A stretch of 64,000 nucleotides of DNA, taken from positions 544,682 to 608,681 of the forward strand of contig NZ_GL538208.1 of assembly GCF_000165735.1 (NCBI RefSeq). The letters are read 5' to 3'. Below the pieces are notes generated by a model that saw only the letters and a program-made list of their open reading frames with translations, was not told the DNA's origin and did no database searches. The position numbers were made by a program, and so were the translations under genes. The DNA comes from Megasphaera micronuciformis F0359 (GTDB lineage: Bacteria > Bacillota > Negativicutes > Veillonellales > Megasphaeraceae). Of this stretch, positions 36,137 through 42,400 are shown in pieces; position 1 is the stretch's first letter; each line of letters opens with the position of its first letter.

Positions 36137-36754
36137 TTAATAGGTCCTGAAGACGCCGATGACGATACCCAATAATTGACAGTTTCGTGTAATAATCGGT
36201 TCATAGTCATCGTTTTCAGGTTGTAAGCGAATATGATCAGACTCAAAGTAATAGCGTTTGACCGTGGCTTCATCATCGACAAGAGCTACGACAATCTGGC
36301 CGTTTCGAGCCATACTTTGTTGACGAACGATGAGTAAATCGCCTTCTAAAATTCCGGCGTCTTTCATACTGTCACCGCGGACTGTAAGCATGAAACAGTC
36401 ATCATCACCGATAAACTCGGCAGCAAAGGGATAGACGTCTTCCACGCATTCTTCTGCCGTAATGGGAGCACCGGCACGGACCGTACCGACCAAGGGAAGG
36501 GGAACGATTTTTTTGGAACGCCACGTGCCCTCGTCAAGAAGTTCTATCTTTCGGTTTTTTGAAGGGTCTCGGCGAATAAATCCCAATTTTTCCAGATCCG
36601 TAAGATAGCCGTGAACGGTAGAGGTAGAACTAAGGCCTACTTCACTGCAAATTTCCCGGACTGACGGGGGGTAGCCGAGGGTATGAACACATTTTCGTAT
36701 GTAGTCTAAGATTTGACGTTGTCGAGTAGTCAAAGAGGTTTCCGGATTCAGCAT
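36137..36754 (-). CDS. lexA: LexA SOS repressor
   Basis: The protein has 205 residues from the ATG at 36754, which follows GGGAG at 11 bases; an ATG at 36772 has no ribosome site. An N-terminal winged-helix domain (about residues 1-65) with LTTRQRQILDYI is followed by the S24 self-cleaving domain: cleavage site Ala-Gly in VRAGAP, catalytic Ser in GDSMKDAG and Lys in VALVDDEATVKRYY. It represses DNA-damage genes. It shares its control region with the divergent LysM gene. Confidence 0.96.
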   Translation of the reverse strand: MLNPETSLTTRQRQILDYIRKCVHTLGYPPSVREICSEVGLSSTSTVHGYLTDLEKLGFIRRDPSKNRKIELLDEGTWRSKKIVPLPLVGTVRAGAPITAEECVEDVYPFAAEFIGDDDCFMLTVRGDSMKDAGILEGDLLIVRQQSMARNGQIVVALVDDEATVKRYYFESDHIRLQPENDDYEPIITRNCQLLGIVIGVFRTY

Positions 36755-36785
36755 ATAGCATATCACTCCCATTTAAGATGGTTTC

Positions 36786-36814
36786 ATTATAAACAATCTC
36801 AAATAGAAAAGCAA
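36786..36814 (-). promoter_or_regulatory. Promoter of lexA
   Basis: On the minus strand TTGCTT (36814-36809) and TATAAT (36791-36786) are 17 bases apart. The LexA-like site at 36813-36824 touches the -35, which fits self-repression. Confidence 0.65.
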
Positions 36815-36902
36815 ACATTTGTTTCCTTTTTTCTTGACAGAACAAGTGTTCGGCGATATAATAAATCTAACGAAAGAACATTCGTTCGCTAAACGTTTGT
36901 TC
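36813..36902. promoter_or_regulatory. Four LexA-box-like operators
   Basis: Sites of the form (G/A)AAC-N4-GTT(C/T) lie at 36813-36824 (AAACATTTGTTT), 36840-36851 (GAACAAGTGTTC), 36876-36887 (GAACATTCGTTC) and 36891-36902 (AAACGTTTGTTC). The core matches the Firmicute LexA box GAACN4GTTC in the two middle sites; the outer two are one or two bases off. Confidence 0.8.
36834..36862 (+). promoter_or_regulatory. Consensus promoter of the LysM gene
   Basis: TTGACA (36834-36839) and TATAAT (36857-36862) are both perfect and 17 bases apart. The LexA site 36840-36851 fills most of the spacer, so LexA should block this promoter. Confidence 0.9.
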
Positions 36903-36940
36903 TTAATAAAAGGACTTATACATACAGGAGTGTGATATAT

Positions 36941-37237
36941 ATGAAACGCAAAACTAAAAAAAGTAACGGAAGACTTCAAAATATTCGCTTTATCCTTATT
37001 GCCGTCATCTTAGTTGCTTCTTTGACTCAAATCGGTTGGATGAATAATCAGACCGAAAAAGAATTTGTTTCAGTTACGGTTCATCAAGGTGATACACTTT
37101 GGAAAATAGCCTCCGCCTCAACAGCCGATAATAAGGATGTACGTAGTACCGTTTATGCCATTGTAGATGCCAATAATCTCGGCCATAATCAGGATATTTA
37201 TCCCGGTCAGGTCTTAAAAGTACCTGTAAGTAAATAA
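36941..37237 (+). CDS. SOS-controlled LysM membrane protein (YneA-like)
   Basis: The ATG at 36941 follows AGGAG at 10 bases and gives 98 residues: a basic N-terminus, one membrane segment (about residues 14-31) and one LysM domain (about 45-96) with HQGDTLWKIAS and PGQVLKVPV. Size, layout and position divergent from lexA match YneA, the SOS-induced division inhibitor of Bacillus. The function is inferred from context; orthology by sequence is hard to prove for so small a protein. The LexA sites and promoter directly support damage induction. Confidence 0.85.
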   Translation: MKRKTKKSNGRLQNIRFILIAVILVASLTQIGWMNNQTEKEFVSVTVHQGDTLWKIASASTADNKDVRSTVYAIVDANNLGHNQDIYPGQVLKVPVSK

Positions 37238-37309: not shown

Positions 37310-38296
37310 CTACCGTTCCGTAATTTTGAAAACAGGATTATTGATAAGGCCGTCAGCCTCATCAATATATTTTCGTACAACCGATTGGGACTTGTGTCTT
37401 GTCTGTTTCATAATACTGCGTTCATCTACTTGATGCTGGGCTGCCGATGTGGCGAAGCCGTGGCGTAGGCTATGGGCTCCGAAATATTGCGAATCCATAC
37501 CGACGGCCTCAACATGTTTTTTGACGATCAGGGCTACAGACTTATCGGATATAGCGGTTTTGCGAACGGTCTTATTTTTTGTAAAGCCCCTAAATACAGG
37601 GCCTGATGTAATACCCGATAGGTGCAACCAATGTTGCAGGGCCGTGACGGCATCTATTTCTTTATCTTCTATGGCCGGTATGGAAATCACTTGACCTTGT
37701 CCGGCTTTATCTGTTTTGGCGTTGCGTACGGTAATACGCAGACCTAAGCGTGAAAACTGCAAATCCTCTACGTGTAAAGAGGCTATTTCGGACCGTCTCA
37801 TGGCTCCGTAAAAACCGATTAGCAGAATAGCCCGATCACGAGCCTGTTCAGCCTCATGTCCCTCGATATGCCTCAACATATCTACGAGGTCATCGAATAA
37901 AATAGGCATCTTTCCCTGCTGTATGGTGCCTTTCATTCGTTTAATACCGCGTACGGCATCTTTTACCAAGGGCAGGCGGCAAGGATTATCCGTAAGGCCT
38001 GCAGCATCGAAATTTTCCGTAAGAGCGCTGACGCGGCGGGCAATAGTGTTAGCCTTGGCGTTATCGGCCAAATCATTAATGTAATTGACAATTGTTTCAG
38101 CCCTTGTCGGGAAGTATTCCTGTTTATGTTGAACACACCAATCGCAAAAATCTTTCCAGTCGGAAGCGTAGGCATCAATTGTATTATCGGCTCTGGCAAT
38201 ATAAATACTTTGTCGGGCCTTGGCAGTAAGTTTTGAATTTCTTTGAATTGCCGCGGGGCGACCGATATAAAAGTGATCCAGTTCATCATAGTTCAT
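37310..38296 (-). CDS. Tyrosine recombinase / integrase
   Basis: The 328-residue protein has an N-terminal SAM-like core-binding domain (about residues 25-115) and a C-terminal catalytic domain. All catalytic residues are present: Arg167, Lys194, His275 and Arg278 (HSLR), His301 and the nucleophile Tyr310 in VRKYIDEAD. AAGGAG precedes the ATG. It is a stand-alone recombinase, with no excisionase, phage or conjugation genes near it. It lies at the edge of an accessory-looking region, and its leader holds a 13-7-13 inverted repeat resembling a recombinase core site. It is not clearly XerC or XerD. Confidence 0.9.
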   Translation of the reverse strand: MNYDELDHFYIGRPAAIQRNSKLTAKARQSIYIARADNTIDAYASDWKDFCDWCVQHKQEYFPTRAETIVNYINDLADNAKANTIARRVSALTENFDAAGLTDNPCRLPLVKDAVRGIKRMKGTIQQGKMPILFDDLVDMLRHIEGHEAEQARDRAILLIGFYGAMRRSEIASLHVEDLQFSRLGLRITVRNAKTDKAGQGQVISIPAIEDKEIDAVTALQHWLHLSGITSGPVFRGFTKNKTVRKTAISDKSVALIVKKHVEAVGMDSQYFGAHSLRHGFATSAAQHQVDERSIMKQTRHKSQSVVRKYIDEADGLINNPVFKITER

Positions 38297-38374
38297 ACAA
38301 AAACTCCTTAAAAGAAGATAAGAAGGCTATTTAAAGCTGATACGGGAATATATCCTATCATTTCTCCCCAATTA

Positions 38375-38407
38375 TTACTTCCGATAAATTAACGTTATCG
38401 GAAGTAA
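38375..38407. repeat. Inverted repeat, 13-base arms and 7-base spacer
   Basis: TTACTTCCGATAA (38375-38387) is repeated inverted at 38395-38407, with spacer ATTAACG. The arms are perfect. There is no T-run on either side, so it is not a terminator. It lies between the recombinase promoter and its start codon. Its size resembles tyrosine-recombinase core sites, but an operator is also possible. Confidence 0.85.
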
Positions 38408-38419
38408 ATACTACTCCGT

Positions 38420-38448
38420 ATTATACAATGAGATTATTTGTGTTTCAA
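38420..38448 (-). promoter_or_regulatory. Promoter of the tyrosine recombinase
   Basis: On the minus strand TTGAAA (38448-38443) and TATAAT (38425-38420) are 17 bases apart, upstream of the inverted repeat. Confidence 0.75.
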
Positions 38449-38487
38449 TATATATCTGTTCTTTTATTCTATGCTTATAAAAATTTG

Positions 38488-38516
38488 TTGTATAGCACCA
38501 CTATTGTTGCTATACT
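38488..38516 (+). promoter_or_regulatory. Promoter of the DUF389 gene
   Basis: TTGTAT (38488-38493) and TATACT (38511-38516) lie 17 bases apart, with TG one base ahead of the -10, 51 bases before the ATG. Confidence 0.65.
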
Positions 38517-38566
38517 TGATTAGTCAAAATAAAGAATAGATTTTATTATATGAGGTTATAAATAAC

Positions 38567-39913
38567 ATGGAGAAATGGAATAAAATAATTGATTTAAAGT
38601 CGGATGCTGCATCATATGAAGTTATTAATGATCGAATTTTATCCGACATGACTATAGGCGGATCTAATTTAATTATTCTGGTTACGGCTATTATAATTGC
38701 CTGTGTCGGTTTAAATTTAAACAGTACGGCCGTTATTATCGGGGCTATGCTTGTATCCCCCTTAATGGGTAATATTTTAGCTGCCGGATACGGAATGGCG
38801 ACCTATGATACGGATTTTATCCGAAAAGCTCTGATTAATATGGTTTTTCAGGTAGTTTTTGCAATCTTAGCGGCTAGCGTGTATTTTTTTATATCCCCAT
38901 TAACAGGAACTACGGATGAATTATTGGCAAGAACCAGTCCTACGATATGGGATGTTTTAATCGCTTTAGCCGGAGGTATTGCAGGTGCTATAGGCAATAC
39001 GAGAACCGAAAAGAACAATGTTATTCCCGGCGTAGCCATTGCTACAGCATTGATGCCCCCGCTTTGTACAGCCGGATACGGTATTGCCGGGGGTAATGCC
39101 GACTTTTTCTTGGGGGCTATGTATTTATTCTTTATAAATGCTTTTTTTATAGCCCTGTCAGCATTTTTAGTATTCAAAATTTTAGGAATACCTCTACACG
39201 GTAACATTCATGAAGCGCATTTTCGTAAACAGCGAATAATCTTAATTATAATGGGGCTTCTTATTACCGTGCCAAGCCTTTATTTTGCAGATAAAACCGT
39301 GCAAGATAGCTTGAAAGATAGGCAGGTACGAATATTTATTTCAGAAAAAATGGAGTTTGAAAAGACCGGTGTAGTTTCCTATTCCCTTCAGGACAATATT
39401 TTGAGGGTGGATCTGGTTGGTGATGCCTTAAGCGATGACGAAATAGAAAAACTCCAGCATACATTGAATTCGTATCCGCAGTTGCAAAAAGTAAAGCTTT
39501 CAATTATTCAGGGAAAAGAAAGTTTGGATTCGGATGAAGTTCGTCAATTGATTAAAAAATCTAAAGAAAAATATAATAGAAATGTTTCTTTGATGTATGC
39601 AAATAAGGGTGACCAAGACTCTAATAGGGCGATTATTAAACGATTGAACAAGGAAGCCCCTATATTATTTCCTGAAGTACAATTAATTCGAGGCGGCTCT
39701 TTGATATCTATAGAAAAAAATACGGATTCTTTTAAATCCGATAAATTTGCTGTAGAAGTTCTTGTAGCATCCCCTTTAAGTACAAGTGATGTAGAACGTC
39801 TTAAAAATTGGATTCAAGGACAGGTGGAGTTGCCCGTTATCATTACTGTGCAGTTAATAAATTCTCCCGATAATTTTTACGGTAATGGCGTGAATTCCGG
39901 AAATAAAGAATAA
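38567..39913 (+). CDS. DUF389-family membrane protein
   Basis: The 448-residue protein has an N-terminal membrane part of about six segments (residues 35-235) with the family-like SPLMGNILAAGYGMA and PGVAIATALMPPLCTAGYG stretches, and a soluble C-terminal region of about 210 residues. DUF389 (TIGR00341-type) proteins are widespread and have no firmly established function. The gene has its own promoter and a strong terminator. It sits between the recombinase and the immunity-like array, and may or may not belong to that region. Confidence 0.85.
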   Translation: MEKWNKIIDLKSDAASYEVINDRILSDMTIGGSNLIILVTAIIIACVGLNLNSTAVIIGAMLVSPLMGNILAAGYGMATYDTDFIRKALINMVFQVVFAILAASVYFFISPLTGTTDELLARTSPTIWDVLIALAGGIAGAIGNTRTEKNNVIPGVAIATALMPPLCTAGYGIAGGNADFFLGAMYLFFINAFFIALSAFLVFKILGIPLHGNIHEAHFRKQRIILIIMGLLITVPSLYFADKTVQDSLKDRQVRIFISEKMEFEKTGVVSYSLQDNILRVDLVGDALSDDEIEKLQHTLNSYPQLQKVKLSIIQGKESLDSDEVRQLIKKSKEKYNRNVSLMYANKGDQDSNRAIIKRLNKEAPILFPEVQLIRGGSLISIEKNTDSFKSDKFAVEVLVASPLSTSDVERLKNWIQGQVELPVIITVQLINSPDNFYGNGVNSGNKE

Positions 39914-39926
39914 AATTATTAAAAAG

Positions 39927-39971
39927 AAAAAAGCGATGAACTCGATATTTGGTTCGAGTTCATCGCTTTTT
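39927..39971. terminator. Bidirectional terminator after the DUF389 gene
   Basis: AAAAAGCGATGAACTCGA pairs with its complement around an 8-base loop and has A- and T-runs at the ends, also serving the minus-strand ORF ending at 39979. Confidence 0.92.
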
Positions 39972-39978
39972 ATACATG

Positions 39979-40200
39979 TTAGTCTACAGATGCTGATTTT
40001 TCTAAGGCGGCTTTCTTGGACTTTATAAAAGCCATTTCTTTTTTATAATCGATTTCTTCGGGACTCATTCTATATAGTCGGCCTTGCTGCTGTGCTAACG
40101 CTATACAATCCGGGTCGTCAATTGCATGTGTCCATGACGCAGGCCCCAAAACCGATGAAATGCCTTCAATCAATACGTCCTTTTCCATCCAAGTAGCCAT
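39979..40200 (-). CDS. Small unknown protein, 73 residues
   Basis: The ATG lies about 8 bases after AGGGGGAG, a good ribosome site, and the frame ends against a strong terminator. The product is soluble, with a Trp-containing N-terminal half and a Lys-rich helical C-terminus (YKKEMAFIKSKKAALEK). I recognise no family. It is the last gene of the minus-strand accessory array. Confidence 0.65.
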   Translation of the reverse strand: MATWMEKDVLIEGISSVLGPASWTHAIDDPDCIALAQQQGRLYRMSPEEIDYKKEMAFIKSKKAALEKSASVD

Positions 40201-40309
40201 ATAAAAACTCCCCCTGACATATTATTTTTATCATTATCCTATGAGTACGGCACGTAAGTCCATAGATAAAGGAAAATTGTCATAAAATTGATTGTATATT
40301 GTAAATTAC

Positions 40310-40936
40310 CTATTTATGGCTCAAGCTTTCAAAATCCTCTTTAGTCATTTGTAATAAGGTTCCTATCCACTGCGGAAAAATATCTGAAAGGACGGAGTCA
40401 CACGTATATCCTTGGTAAGAGCCTGTAAAGGTCGGTATGCGTGTAGCGGCTTGGTAGAATGTTTCGGCTAATTCCGGCAAGTTTTCCGGAGTAAACGATA
40501 CGGATAATTTTTTTGCCAAGGCGCCGTGTATTTCGTCCCAATCGGTTCGGTTTTCGGCATATTCGTTACGTATTTTCTTCAGATAGGCCATACAGAAAGT
40601 TCGGAGTAACTCTTTGTTTTTATATAGATTTATATAATTGAAATCGAAAATATTTGCACCGTTAACTAAGAAGGTCAATAAGTCGTCCAACCTGTCAGCT
40701 ACTCGTCCTACACTCCCCTCACTACTGATTAAGCCGATACTTCCGTCTTCGAGAAGAACAAACTCGCCGCCGCTGCCGTCGTGCGCAAAGGCTTGGCATT
40801 TATGCGAGTACACTTCCCCGTTTCCCGAAAATTGAGGCTGTTGAAGTTCTTCATAAAAACGGATATCACAAGTTCTCATGAGCCTTTCGTTCAGTTCTTT
40901 AGTTATTTCTATTTGAAGACCTAAGGTGTTTTCCAC
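40310..40936 (-). CDS. SUKH-like (SMI1/KNR4-type) protein, 208 residues
   Basis: The central part (about residues 45-95) with GGEFVLLEDGSIGLIS followed by SEGSVGRVADRLDDLLTFLV resembles the core of SUKH-superfamily proteins, where an acidic/Gly stretch precedes a Ser-Glu-Gly turn and a final helix. The C-terminal half is helical and unassigned. SUKH proteins often serve as immunity proteins against polymorphic toxins. No toxin lies beside it. The family call is from pattern only and is less sure than for the gene at 43388. Confidence 0.55.
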   Translation of the reverse strand: MENTLGLQIEITKELNERLMRTCDIRFYEELQQPQFSGNGEVYSHKCQAFAHDGSGGEFVLLEDGSIGLISSEGSVGRVADRLDDLLTFLVNGANIFDFNYINLYKNKELLRTFCMAYLKKIRNEYAENRTDWDEIHGALAKKLSVSFTPENLPELAETFYQAATRIPTFTGSYQGYTCDSVLSDIFPQWIGTLLQMTKEDFESLSHK

Positions 40937-41056
40937 AGTCCGAATCTCCTTTTGTATAGTCCGTATAACAGCTACGGTCTACAAAAACAGTCCCGTCGGA
41001 AGTCCCCAGTAACGGGCCAGAAAATCATATAGAATAAATGTCATATCTCATACATT

Positions 41057-41485
41057 TCATTCCTTAATACACAAGATACCTCGTTGACGAAATTCATTCA
41101 TTAAAATTTCCGTTGATAAGTCTATAATGCGCTCATTCGTAATAATAACTACAAAGCGGTAATACACACTGCCGTCAAAAGAGATTAATCGACCCGAGTG
41201 ACCGTTTGTTTTTATAACCTGCAAATAGCCGATATAGCTGCTGGTACTGATACGGCCGCGTGCACGACCTTTCGAAAAACGGACTTCGGCAATATCTTTT
41301 AGTTTGTACGTCGGCGGAAAAAATCCCGTATTGATAGTTACGGAATCTTTCGTAAAGTGAAGAATATTGTATCCTTCTTTGGCATTAGAGCCGAAGAAAT
41401 GCATTAGTTTATAGCCTGAAAGGATTAGGCAAACTATGCCTATAACAATGAATATATACATAATACTTCCCATGCCGGCCATCAT
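41057..41485 (-). CDS. Membrane-anchored PH-like protein, 142 residues, unknown
   Basis: One or two N-terminal hydrophobic segments (about residues 5-30) precede a beta-rich domain (about 38-140) that looks like a bacterial PH fold: paired strands, YKLKDIAEVRFSKG in the middle and a final helix ending in EFRQRGILC. The same ending (MEMRGIHC) and layout occur in the gene at 44304, so the two are probably paralogues. The function is unknown. Confidence 0.6.
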   Translation of the reverse strand: MMAGMGSIMYIFIVIGIVCLILSGYKLMHFFGSNAKEGYNILHFTKDSVTINTGFFPPTYKLKDIAEVRFSKGRARGRISTSSYIGYLQVIKTNGHSGRLISFDGSVYYRFVVIITNERIIDLSTEILMNEFRQRGILCIKE

Positions 41486-41507
41486 AATGTATACCTCAAT
41501 TCCAACG

Positions 41508-41542
41508 AAGGCGAGATAGTTAACGCTATCGGAGTCCGCCTT
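41508..41542 (-). terminator. Weak hairpin upstream of the 41057 gene
   Basis: AAGGCG pairs with CGCCTT, with an inner GATAG/CTATC pair. No clear T-run follows on the minus strand, so this may be only a leader structure. Confidence 0.3.
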
Positions 41543-41560
41543 TTCAGATTTTAAAAATAC

Positions 41561-41589
41561 GGAATAGAGAGTTGAGTCCCCTCTATCCC
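41561..41589 (-). terminator. Terminator after the 41600 gene
   Basis: On the minus strand GGGATAGAG pairs with CTCTATTCC (one G-T pair) and is followed by GTATTTTT. Confidence 0.65.
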
Positions 41590-41599
41590 GTCATAGATT

Positions 41600-42400
41600 T
41601 TATTTTTCCAGCCAATTGGCTATATCATAGTTGTAAGAAGCTGTACGTTCAACGGCCATTTTTTGCCATTCAGTCGATGTAGTACCGTCTTTGTCGTAGT
41701 AATAAGATGAATCAAGATAGCGGATGATAACATATTTTGAATCTTTCTGGTCCCAATTGTTGCCACGAGAAAAATCTATACCGTGTCCCGTATTTCGGGC
41801 AACGATGGCATTGATGACCGATACGGTTAAGGCCGTCAGAGGAATGGTCATATCCGCCTTATCAAACAGTTTCTTAAAGAAGCCCTTGGCTTCTCCCTTT
41901 TCCGATGTGTAAATCAAAAGATTGTTAATTGCTCCTGCAGCCATACAGAGTACGCGGCGGATATCTTTAATAGGAATTGAAGTATTGCCGAAGACGAGAT
42001 TTCCGTTTTGAAGACGAACTTCTTTTCTCTTTAAATAGGAATAATCAAGGGGGAGGTCAAGTGTCTCCAAATTTGCCGGAAAATCGGCTGTCAGTTTATT
42101 ACGAAGAAAGGCGGCAATAAGGGCCTTTGTTTCAAAAATATTATGGCAATCGTCACGGCTTTCGCAGTCTGTATCCACTTCAGTTAAATTTTTCCAGTCC
42201 GTACCTCTGAAGATAATCTGATAGTTATTGTTTGAGTTTAAATAGCCTGAACAATGAAGTCCGTTCACGTCGTCAAAGTCGACGTCACAAGTGACCTTGC
42301 CGTTTTTATCCTTACAAAGTACGCCGTTACGGCTGATTGTTAAGACGGAGCCGTCTTTTCGATTGAAAATAGCGGGATGTGTGTCGAAGGGTGAAATCAT
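41600..42400 (-). CDS. Unknown protein with two PH-like halves, 266 residues
   Basis: AAAGGAG lies before the ATG. Both halves are beta-rich with a closing helix: an N-terminal unit (about residues 8-105) and a second unit (about 125-215) containing LVFGNTSIPIKDIRRVL. This pattern recalls tandem bacterial PH-like domains, which is my inference. A short stretch ALTVSVINAIVARNTGHG is conserved-looking but has no known meaning. There is no signal or membrane segment. It belongs to the minus-strand array of immunity-like genes. Confidence 0.55.
   Translation of the reverse strand: MISPFDTHPAIFNRKDGSVLTISRNGVLCKDKNGKVTCDVDFDDVNGLHCSGYLNSNNNYQIIFRGTDWKNLTEVDTDCESRDDCHNIFETKALIAAFLRNKLTADFPANLETLDLPLDYSYLKRKEVRLQNGNLVFGNTSIPIKDIRRVLCMAAGAINNLLIYTSEKGEAKGFFKKLFDKADMTIPLTALTVSVINAIVARNTGHGIDFSRGNNWDQKDSKYVIIRYLDSSYYYDKDGTTSTEWQKMAVERTASYNYDIANWLEK

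Follow-up and report, generated by a model that had tools for sequence, protein, structure and literature searches.

The locus described here raises the question of why a perfect inverted repeat lies between the predicted promoter and the start codon of a tyrosine recombinase gene, and what task the enzyme and the repeat might share. The original prediction described a repeat with 13-base arms and a 7-base spacer at 38375-38407 and, before it, a promoter with its -10 element at 38420-38425. Both are present in the window, by which we mean the whole 64-kb stretch of DNA that was analysed: the two arms, read directly in the sequence, are 100% complementary, and the -10 element belongs to a TTGAAA-17-TATAAT match with 11 of 12 consensus positions, the best of five promoter-like sites in 38200-38600 (shuffles: 2.5). 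The features to which we refer are the following.

37310-38296, minus strand: Cre-like single tyrosine recombinase of 328 aa (PF00589 and PF02899)
38304-38309, minus strand: AAGGAG, ribosome-binding-site-like, before the recombinase ATG, read directly in the sequence
38375-38387, no strand: left 13-bp arm, TTACTTCCGATAA, putative recombinase-binding half-site
38388-38394, minus strand: asymmetric 7-bp spacer ATTAACG (CGTTAAT on the minus strand), putative strand-exchange region that would give the site its direction
38395-38407, no strand: right 13-bp arm, TTATCGGAAGTAA, putative recombinase-binding half-site
38420-38448, minus strand: predicted sigma-70-type promoter of the recombinase, TTGAAA-17-TATAAT, called from its consensus match
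38000-42000, no strand: replication-terminus region, from the cumulative GC-skew maximum at 40010

The recombinase starts with an ATG at 38296 (minus strand), 78 bases away from the repeat. No perfect repeat with 13-bp arms and a spacer of 5-9 bases appeared in eight first-order Markov simulations of the 64-kb window, and the actual window has seven such places (13 rows), so that a perfect 13-bp repeat is not by itself unique there. Single arms with at most two mismatches number seven in the window, where 2.8 would be expected; two of these are the repeat's own arms, and the remaining five each carry two mismatches. In its own genome the 11-bp-arm form of the site is found once, and the other match to CGATAA-N7-TTATCG (G000:C10:43696) is without extended arms. 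What distinguishes this repeat is its conservation across other genomes and not its score. A function as an intrinsic terminator is rejected, since there are no terminator-like sites in 38200-38600. The predicted transcript folding of the repeat has a z of -2.6, with 4 of 200 shuffles folding equally well, and an RNA hairpin as the main function is rejected because the palindrome is conserved even where it is far from the gene. A tRNA scan of the 64-kb window gave no genes. Adjoining the recombinase, at 36137-37237, are lexA on the minus strand and, on the plus strand, a LysM gene that among NCBIfam models fits the cell-division suppressor YneA best, at 59.7 bits against a cut-off of 60.

The original prediction looked to related genomes for further copies of the arm, and they do hold them. 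Matching sites of about 30 bp, with two arms and a short central region and one per chromosome, are present in 37 of 40 genomes (its own and 39 relatives), including G039, where the core has one changed base. The core is CGATAA-N7-TTATCG, and the spacers are asymmetric, such as CGTTAAA, CATTAAA and CGATATA. No site was found in G007, G010 and G012; the latter two do have the recombinase, and the regions around it were inspected in both with the same outcome. An additional full-arm palindrome with a different spacer is present in five of the 40 genomes (G003, G006, G009, G013 and G025). By a count of coordinates, the site is less than 1 kb from the recombinase in 16 of the 37 genomes, and elsewhere it is 2-9 kb away in ten, 37-105 kb away in four (the distance in G001 being counted on a circle) and on a separate contig in seven. 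Among further relatives, the core GATAA-N7-TTATC is present in 17 of 21 regions around the recombinase; the four regions without it are three of the four from family f13 and that of G044, located at the edge of a contig. Within a sample of 200 genomes from the class, a strict core, TTCCGATAA-N7-TTATCGGAA, is present in 64 of the 91 genomes with the recombinase and in 3 of the 109 without it (G040, G061 and G063, drafts of 50 to 310 contigs), and 6 of these 67 genomes carry it in two or three copies. It should be noted that the strict-core matches of G009 and G013 are second palindromes, the main site there having one changed arm base.

Arms and spacers were compared across 56 sites (37 near and 19 further, the f13 site L184:3663 being left out), which reduce to 50 distinct rows with 15 spacer types. 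With each spacer read in the direction that suits the pattern best, 47 of the 50 end in TAAA or TATA. The inner arm bases are invariant, in part because the sites were found via their inner core, so that conservation at arm positions 1-6 (1-9 for three strict-pattern sites) follows from the way in which sites were chosen; the test of complementarity was limited to positions 7-13. There, 320 of 350 cells are complementary against 227 (sd 8) with the arms reshuffled among sites, a figure to which no probability attaches because the sites are related. The outer arm bases vary by lineage (ACTTCC, GTTCC, GTAAC, ATAAC, ACTAGT and AATATA) yet stay complementary.

The position of the site relative to the replication terminus was followed by GC skew and by distance from dnaA. 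In the window, the cumulative GC-skew maximum is 1.6 kb from the repeat. Three genomes have site and gene 38-102 kb apart, and in these the skew switch is 0.6-4 kb from the site: in G001 the skew maximum lies 0.9 kb from the site, as against 103 kb from the recombinase, and the corresponding distances are 4.0 kb and 41.6 kb in G025, and 0.6 kb and 41.6 kb in G036. The dnaA comparison covers 18 related chromosomes (10 from the order and 8 from the class), which are not independent, each taken as the circle of its main contig, with one or more small extra contigs in a few. The site is opposite dnaA in all 18, at a median of 1.9% and a maximum of 7.6% (G006) of genome length off the antipode, and its position, at the terminus across from the origin and close to the GC-skew switch, is that of a dif-type site. 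In G113, G142 and G170 the site is 0.2-2.2% off the antipode and the recombinase 6.3-10.8% off. Left out were G157, whose length was not read, G066, in which there was no site, G168 and G148, each with several large contigs, and the draft relatives, G004 and G019 among them; placed by hand, the site of G168 would be about 4.9% off if its contig were closed. The terminus is tracked by the site and not by the gene.

These positions bear directly on the simple operator that the original prediction named as the main alternative, in which the repeat serves the recombinase or another regulator to control its own promoter. An operator would fit the place of the repeat at about +5 to +37 of the predicted recombinase transcript, counted from a putative start point, and the 16 of 37 genomes with the site less than 1 kb from the gene. 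However, in the other 21 the site is 2-105 kb away or on a separate contig and is still conserved, the distant sites are, where tested, at the skew switch, the asymmetric 7-bp spacer is conserved, and in one genome a prophage is inserted in the site. An operator alone does not account for the repeat, since the site remains at the terminus when the gene is elsewhere, and we regard a pure operator as very unlikely.

The 328-aa product of the recombinase gene has Phage_integrase and Phage_int_SAM_1 domains, and six residues that would be catalytic from their roles in the family, R167, K194, H275, R278, H301 and Y310, are all invariant in 39 orthologues. Exactly one recombinase match is present in 39 of the 40 genomes, and none in G007, a genome that is 83% complete. 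Named orthologues include those of Anaeroglobus geminatus (79%) and Colibacter massiliensis (77%), with others in species of Megasphaera, Veillonella, Dialister, Allisonella and Negativicoccus. The protein falls far below the cut-offs of the XerC model (TIGR02224; 64.2 bits, cut-off 335.15), the XerD model (TIGR02225; 65.3 bits, cut-off 329.6) and the XerS model (NCBIfam NF003462; 49 bits, cut-off 267). A PDB search with a profile of the 39 orthologues places Cre first (1.3e-15), followed by XerD (8e-11), archaeal XerA (8.5e-11) and XerH (9.6e-6). The predicted structure has a mean pLDDT of 82.1 and a pTM of 0.64, with residues 302-314, around the predicted tyrosine, below pLDDT 50. With this structure the top Foldseek match is again Cre (4e-11), and VIA-align gives Cre a Z of 21.5 with 253 residues aligned and a high rmsd of 17.2, which probably reflects a different domain arrangement; the Z values for XerA, XerH and full-length XerD are 17.6, 16.9 and 13.7. 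Cre is the nearest solved relative both by profile and by predicted fold, and on these two measures the recombinase appears to resemble phage P1 Cre more than XerD, XerA or XerH.

In most bacteria, the separation of chromosomes that have accidentally become joined is handled by XerC and XerD. Among the 40 genomes, no protein exceeds the cut-off for XerC and none that for XerD; with the XerD model at E<=0.001, the recombinase is the sole match in seven of them (G017, G024, G030, G032, G033, G038 and G039). FtsK-gamma exceeds its cut-off in all 40. In the class sample of 200, the recombinase is present in 91 genomes and absent in 109. There are 66 genomes without an XerD-model match at 1e-60 among the 91, 17 with one and 8 with two, and because at least one Xer match is retained in 25 of the 91, the recombinase system is not the sole candidate in those genomes. 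The 109 without the recombinase comprise 70 with two such matches, 7 with one and 32 with none, and the recombinase profile at 1e-8 had no match in 27 class genomes lacking the recombinase. The single-Xer genomes (17 of the 91; G043, G048, G055, G056, G062 and others) nearly all score like XerD where listed, at about 390-405 bits; a single XerD-model match beside the recombinase is possibly a half-finished replacement or an XerD kept for another role. As a separate observation, 24 of the 44 sampled genomes of family f14 (G049, G083 and G091 belong to it) are without both an XerD-model match at 1e-60 and the recombinase; 17 of these were rechecked with the recombinase profile at 1e-8, with no match, and genomes of this kind may hold yet another resolution system.

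Based on these data, we propose that the repeat is very probably a chromosome dimer resolution site, dif-type with lox-like anatomy, that is served by the adjacent Cre-like recombinase. We have high confidence, from sequence comparison, that the repeat is the crossover site of the recombinase itself, because the same architecture recurs beside or near orthologues across the class and beside distant plasmid and viral homologues. The symmetric arms suggest one protein binding both, the conserved asymmetric spacer suggests directional exchange, and the terminus position together with the absence of XerC and XerD suggests chromosome dimer resolution with FtsK as the likely controller. The steps of binding, cleavage, strand exchange, dimer resolution and FtsK control in the proposed mechanism are modelled on dif/Xer and Cre/lox biology. 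Specifically, an odd number of crossovers between sister chromosomes would generate a dimer with two directly oriented copies of the site, which FtsK would probably bring together while controlling the timing. Four recombinase protomers would then bind, one to each arm, and strand exchange inside the 7-bp spacers would give two monomeric chromosomes. The palindromic arms would suit a single kind of protomer, and the asymmetric spacer would set the direction of exchange. Where site and promoter adjoin, as they do here, it is possible that the bound recombinase also damps its own transcription.

Any mechanism put forward for this locus must also be weighed against the self-switching unit of the original prediction, in which inversion or excision of DNA by recombination would join the gene to its promoter or part the two. 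The part of that interpretation that saw the repeat as the enzyme's own site holds, as set out above; the switching promoter does not. The location of the site between promoter and gene would suit a switch, and in one Dialister relative (G028) a prophage in the site parts the gene from its former upstream DNA, though a promoter-like match (10/12) remains between the site and the recombinase gene. However, two inverted sites around a promoter, as in an invertible promoter switch, are not found; there is one such site in the genome, the window has otherwise the five single-arm matches with two mismatches, and the order of promoter, site and gene is not conserved, the site often being far from the gene. 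Since there is no second site in its own genome, the enzyme cannot invert or excise the promoter, and since recombination between dimer sites rebuilds the same promoter-gene junction, self-switching is not supported, and we consider it extremely unlikely.

The proposal of a dimer resolution site has also to be set against a reading of the gene as the integrase of a mobile element and of the palindrome as its attachment site. In support of the integrase reading, plasmids from outside the class commonly carry homologues (2,635 records, the best of them 43% identical), and gene-plus-site pairs occur on viral contigs. Eight plasmid regions, chosen from 15 listed, were inspected, and five have, upstream of the gene itself or of genes that immediately precede it, a palindrome of the form GATAA-N6 or N7-TTATC; those from Paenibacillus, Komagataeibacter (a record that begins at the gene, without upstream DNA) and Methylomonas have none, nor does the one phage record with a homologue that was inspected. 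Among IMG/VR viral contigs (L204-L323), at least 120 stretches have the strict core, and 14 of them hold a recombinase homologue (several being near-duplicates), and in 13 of the 14 the site coincides with the 5' end of the homologue or is no more than about 0.4 kb from it. One of these 14 contigs, L273, carries the G028 chromosomal site itself. The strict core alone is no proof of the recombinase, because 106 of the at least 120 viral stretches are without a recognised homologue in the DNA that was available for them; many of the 106 are about 5 kb long, with spacers such as TTAAACG. In 84 of the at least 120 viral sites the symmetry stops at the searched core, and stretches of this kind may be small phages that mimic a dif-type site. 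Against the integrase reading stand the single match in 39 of 40 genomes, the location at or near the terminus in 18 chromosomes, and neighbours in the window that are lexA, the LysM/YneA-like gene and DUF389, and we consider it exceedingly improbable. Finally, XerD has a non-recombination role at the terminus in Bacillus, and a terminus site that is bound and not recombined, with another task such as SMC unloading or fork stopping, would share the location seen here, but it is barely credible in view of the lox/dif anatomy, the conserved asymmetry of the spacer, the invariant catalytic-type residues and the count of 0 of 40 genomes with XerC or XerD over the cut-off.

The prophage of G028 gives a further view of the candidate dimer resolution site. 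It resembles a tailed phage, is 33.8 kb long (G028:C1:938162-971981; L090, L333 and L334) and lies inside the dif-like site, bounded by 23-bp exact repeats, each of which comprises three end bases of one arm, then the spacer and the second arm. Seven proteins scanned near one end gave endolysin, holin, integrase, tail fibre, tail protein and baseplate matches, with one lacking a match, and another tyrosine recombinase lies just inside the far 23-bp repeat. A complete site is kept on one side of the prophage, with arms of two types. The prophage seems to have made use of the site without destroying it, and in this it resembles the element LME-1 of Legionella as described in the available text of PMC9765430, where a complete site likewise remains after insertion.

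The system proposed here can be compared with several that are known. Its likeness to Cre/loxP of phage P1 lies in the one recombinase, the repeat arms around a spacer and the site upstream of the gene, as annotated in the P1 record. At the best of nine offsets, the loxP arm from that record and the arm here agree in 10 of 13 positions, which 0.2% of shuffled arms equal. It differs in that the site here is chromosomal, at the replication terminus and conserved across an order, and in its spacer of 7 bp; that of loxP is 8 bp. The annotated cre promoters of P1 are situated between loxP and cre, but the promoter predicted here lies beyond the site, and the two recombinases share about 20% protein identity. 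According to the accessible portion of PMC2409434, Cre keeps P1 monomeric. Likeness to XerCD/dif of the Bacillus subtilis type lies in the presumed task and the terminus position, and the left arm of B. subtilis dif, as printed in PMC3025954, agrees with our arm in 9 of 11 positions, a score equalled by 0.2% of shuffled arms. The differences are one recombinase rather than two, with neither XerC nor XerD over its cut-off in the 40 genomes, and a site whose two arms are alike.

Single-recombinase systems are also in print: the accessible parts of the papers concerned describe XerS, XerH and XerA (PMC5357621) and XerL (PMC9765430). XerH, which acts on difH in epsilonproteobacteria, ranks behind Cre for our protein, both by profile (E 9.6e-6) and by VIA-align (Z 16.9). 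The streptococcal difSL, in the available text of PMC5357621, has an 11-bp central region and imperfect arms, in contrast to the 7-bp spacer and near-perfect arms here. XerL of the Legionellales is described in PMC9765430 as a divergent single recombinase with perfectly symmetric dif arms near the GC-skew maximum; that dif is mimicked by an integrating element (LME-1 in Legionella), and its 10-bp arms are without homology to known Xer-binding motifs. Going by that description, the likeness extends to the single divergent recombinase, the symmetric arms, the place near the skew maximum and the integrating element at the site, and the differences are a different bacterial order and the 10-bp arms of the XerL system. 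A survey of tyrosine recombinases notes that the lack of Xer may be made good by other simple recombinases specific to a class (PMC8138268). The word Veillonella is absent from the main text of both PMC9765430 and PMC5357621, and among the matches listed from the open-access literature, outside which most subscription journals lie, no dimer resolution system is described in Negativicutes. What would be new here is a Cre-like rather than an Xer-type enzyme, which by analogy would work like a single-recombinase dif/Xer system.

As to the origin of the system, we put forward a scenario to which we give an even chance, namely that a Cre/lox multimer-resolution module of plasmid or phage type was captured by a Negativicutes chromosome, took over dimer resolution and displaced XerCD, its steps being preserved today in genomes with XerC and XerD beside the module, with XerD alone beside it and with the module alone, and the enzyme, bound to its own site where site and gene adjoin, also damping its own transcription. 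We go no further than this because the tree does not show the direction of capture. In it, Cre stands among plasmid and viral rows on a long branch (6.25), and XerC and XerD together make up a single clade (100/100), whose branch of 5.74 joins at a weak fork (84/70) inside the chromosomal rows. The root was placed for drawing only and both Cre and XerC/D are on long branches, so the tree settles neither the ancestry nor a grouping with Cre or Xer.

If the proposal is true, a Cre-type enzyme performs a core cell-cycle task in at least one bacterial order. Some genomes of the class have XerC and XerD, others a single Xer match and others no Xer beside the module, so that the replacement of a core machine is testable within the class, and the proposal prompts one to ask in what way a Cre-like protein is controlled by FtsK. 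The genera Veillonella, Megasphaera and Dialister are frequent commensals of humans, and for genomes of their type the site provides a marker of the terminus and explains the insertion point of at least one prophage.

Two further sets of palindromes were observed. The second full-arm site of G025 (G025:C3:155501-155525; L085) has the spacer CGCCGAT, and several tyrosine recombinases are encoded on the same contig, between about 146 and 170 kb. In four Megasphaera relatives, a similar palindrome with the spacer GTATTRA is found just beyond the 3' end of a second tyrosine recombinase, and these palindromes (L071:18055, L072:5244, L073:10807 and L074:12076) lie 4-8 kb from the dif-like site.
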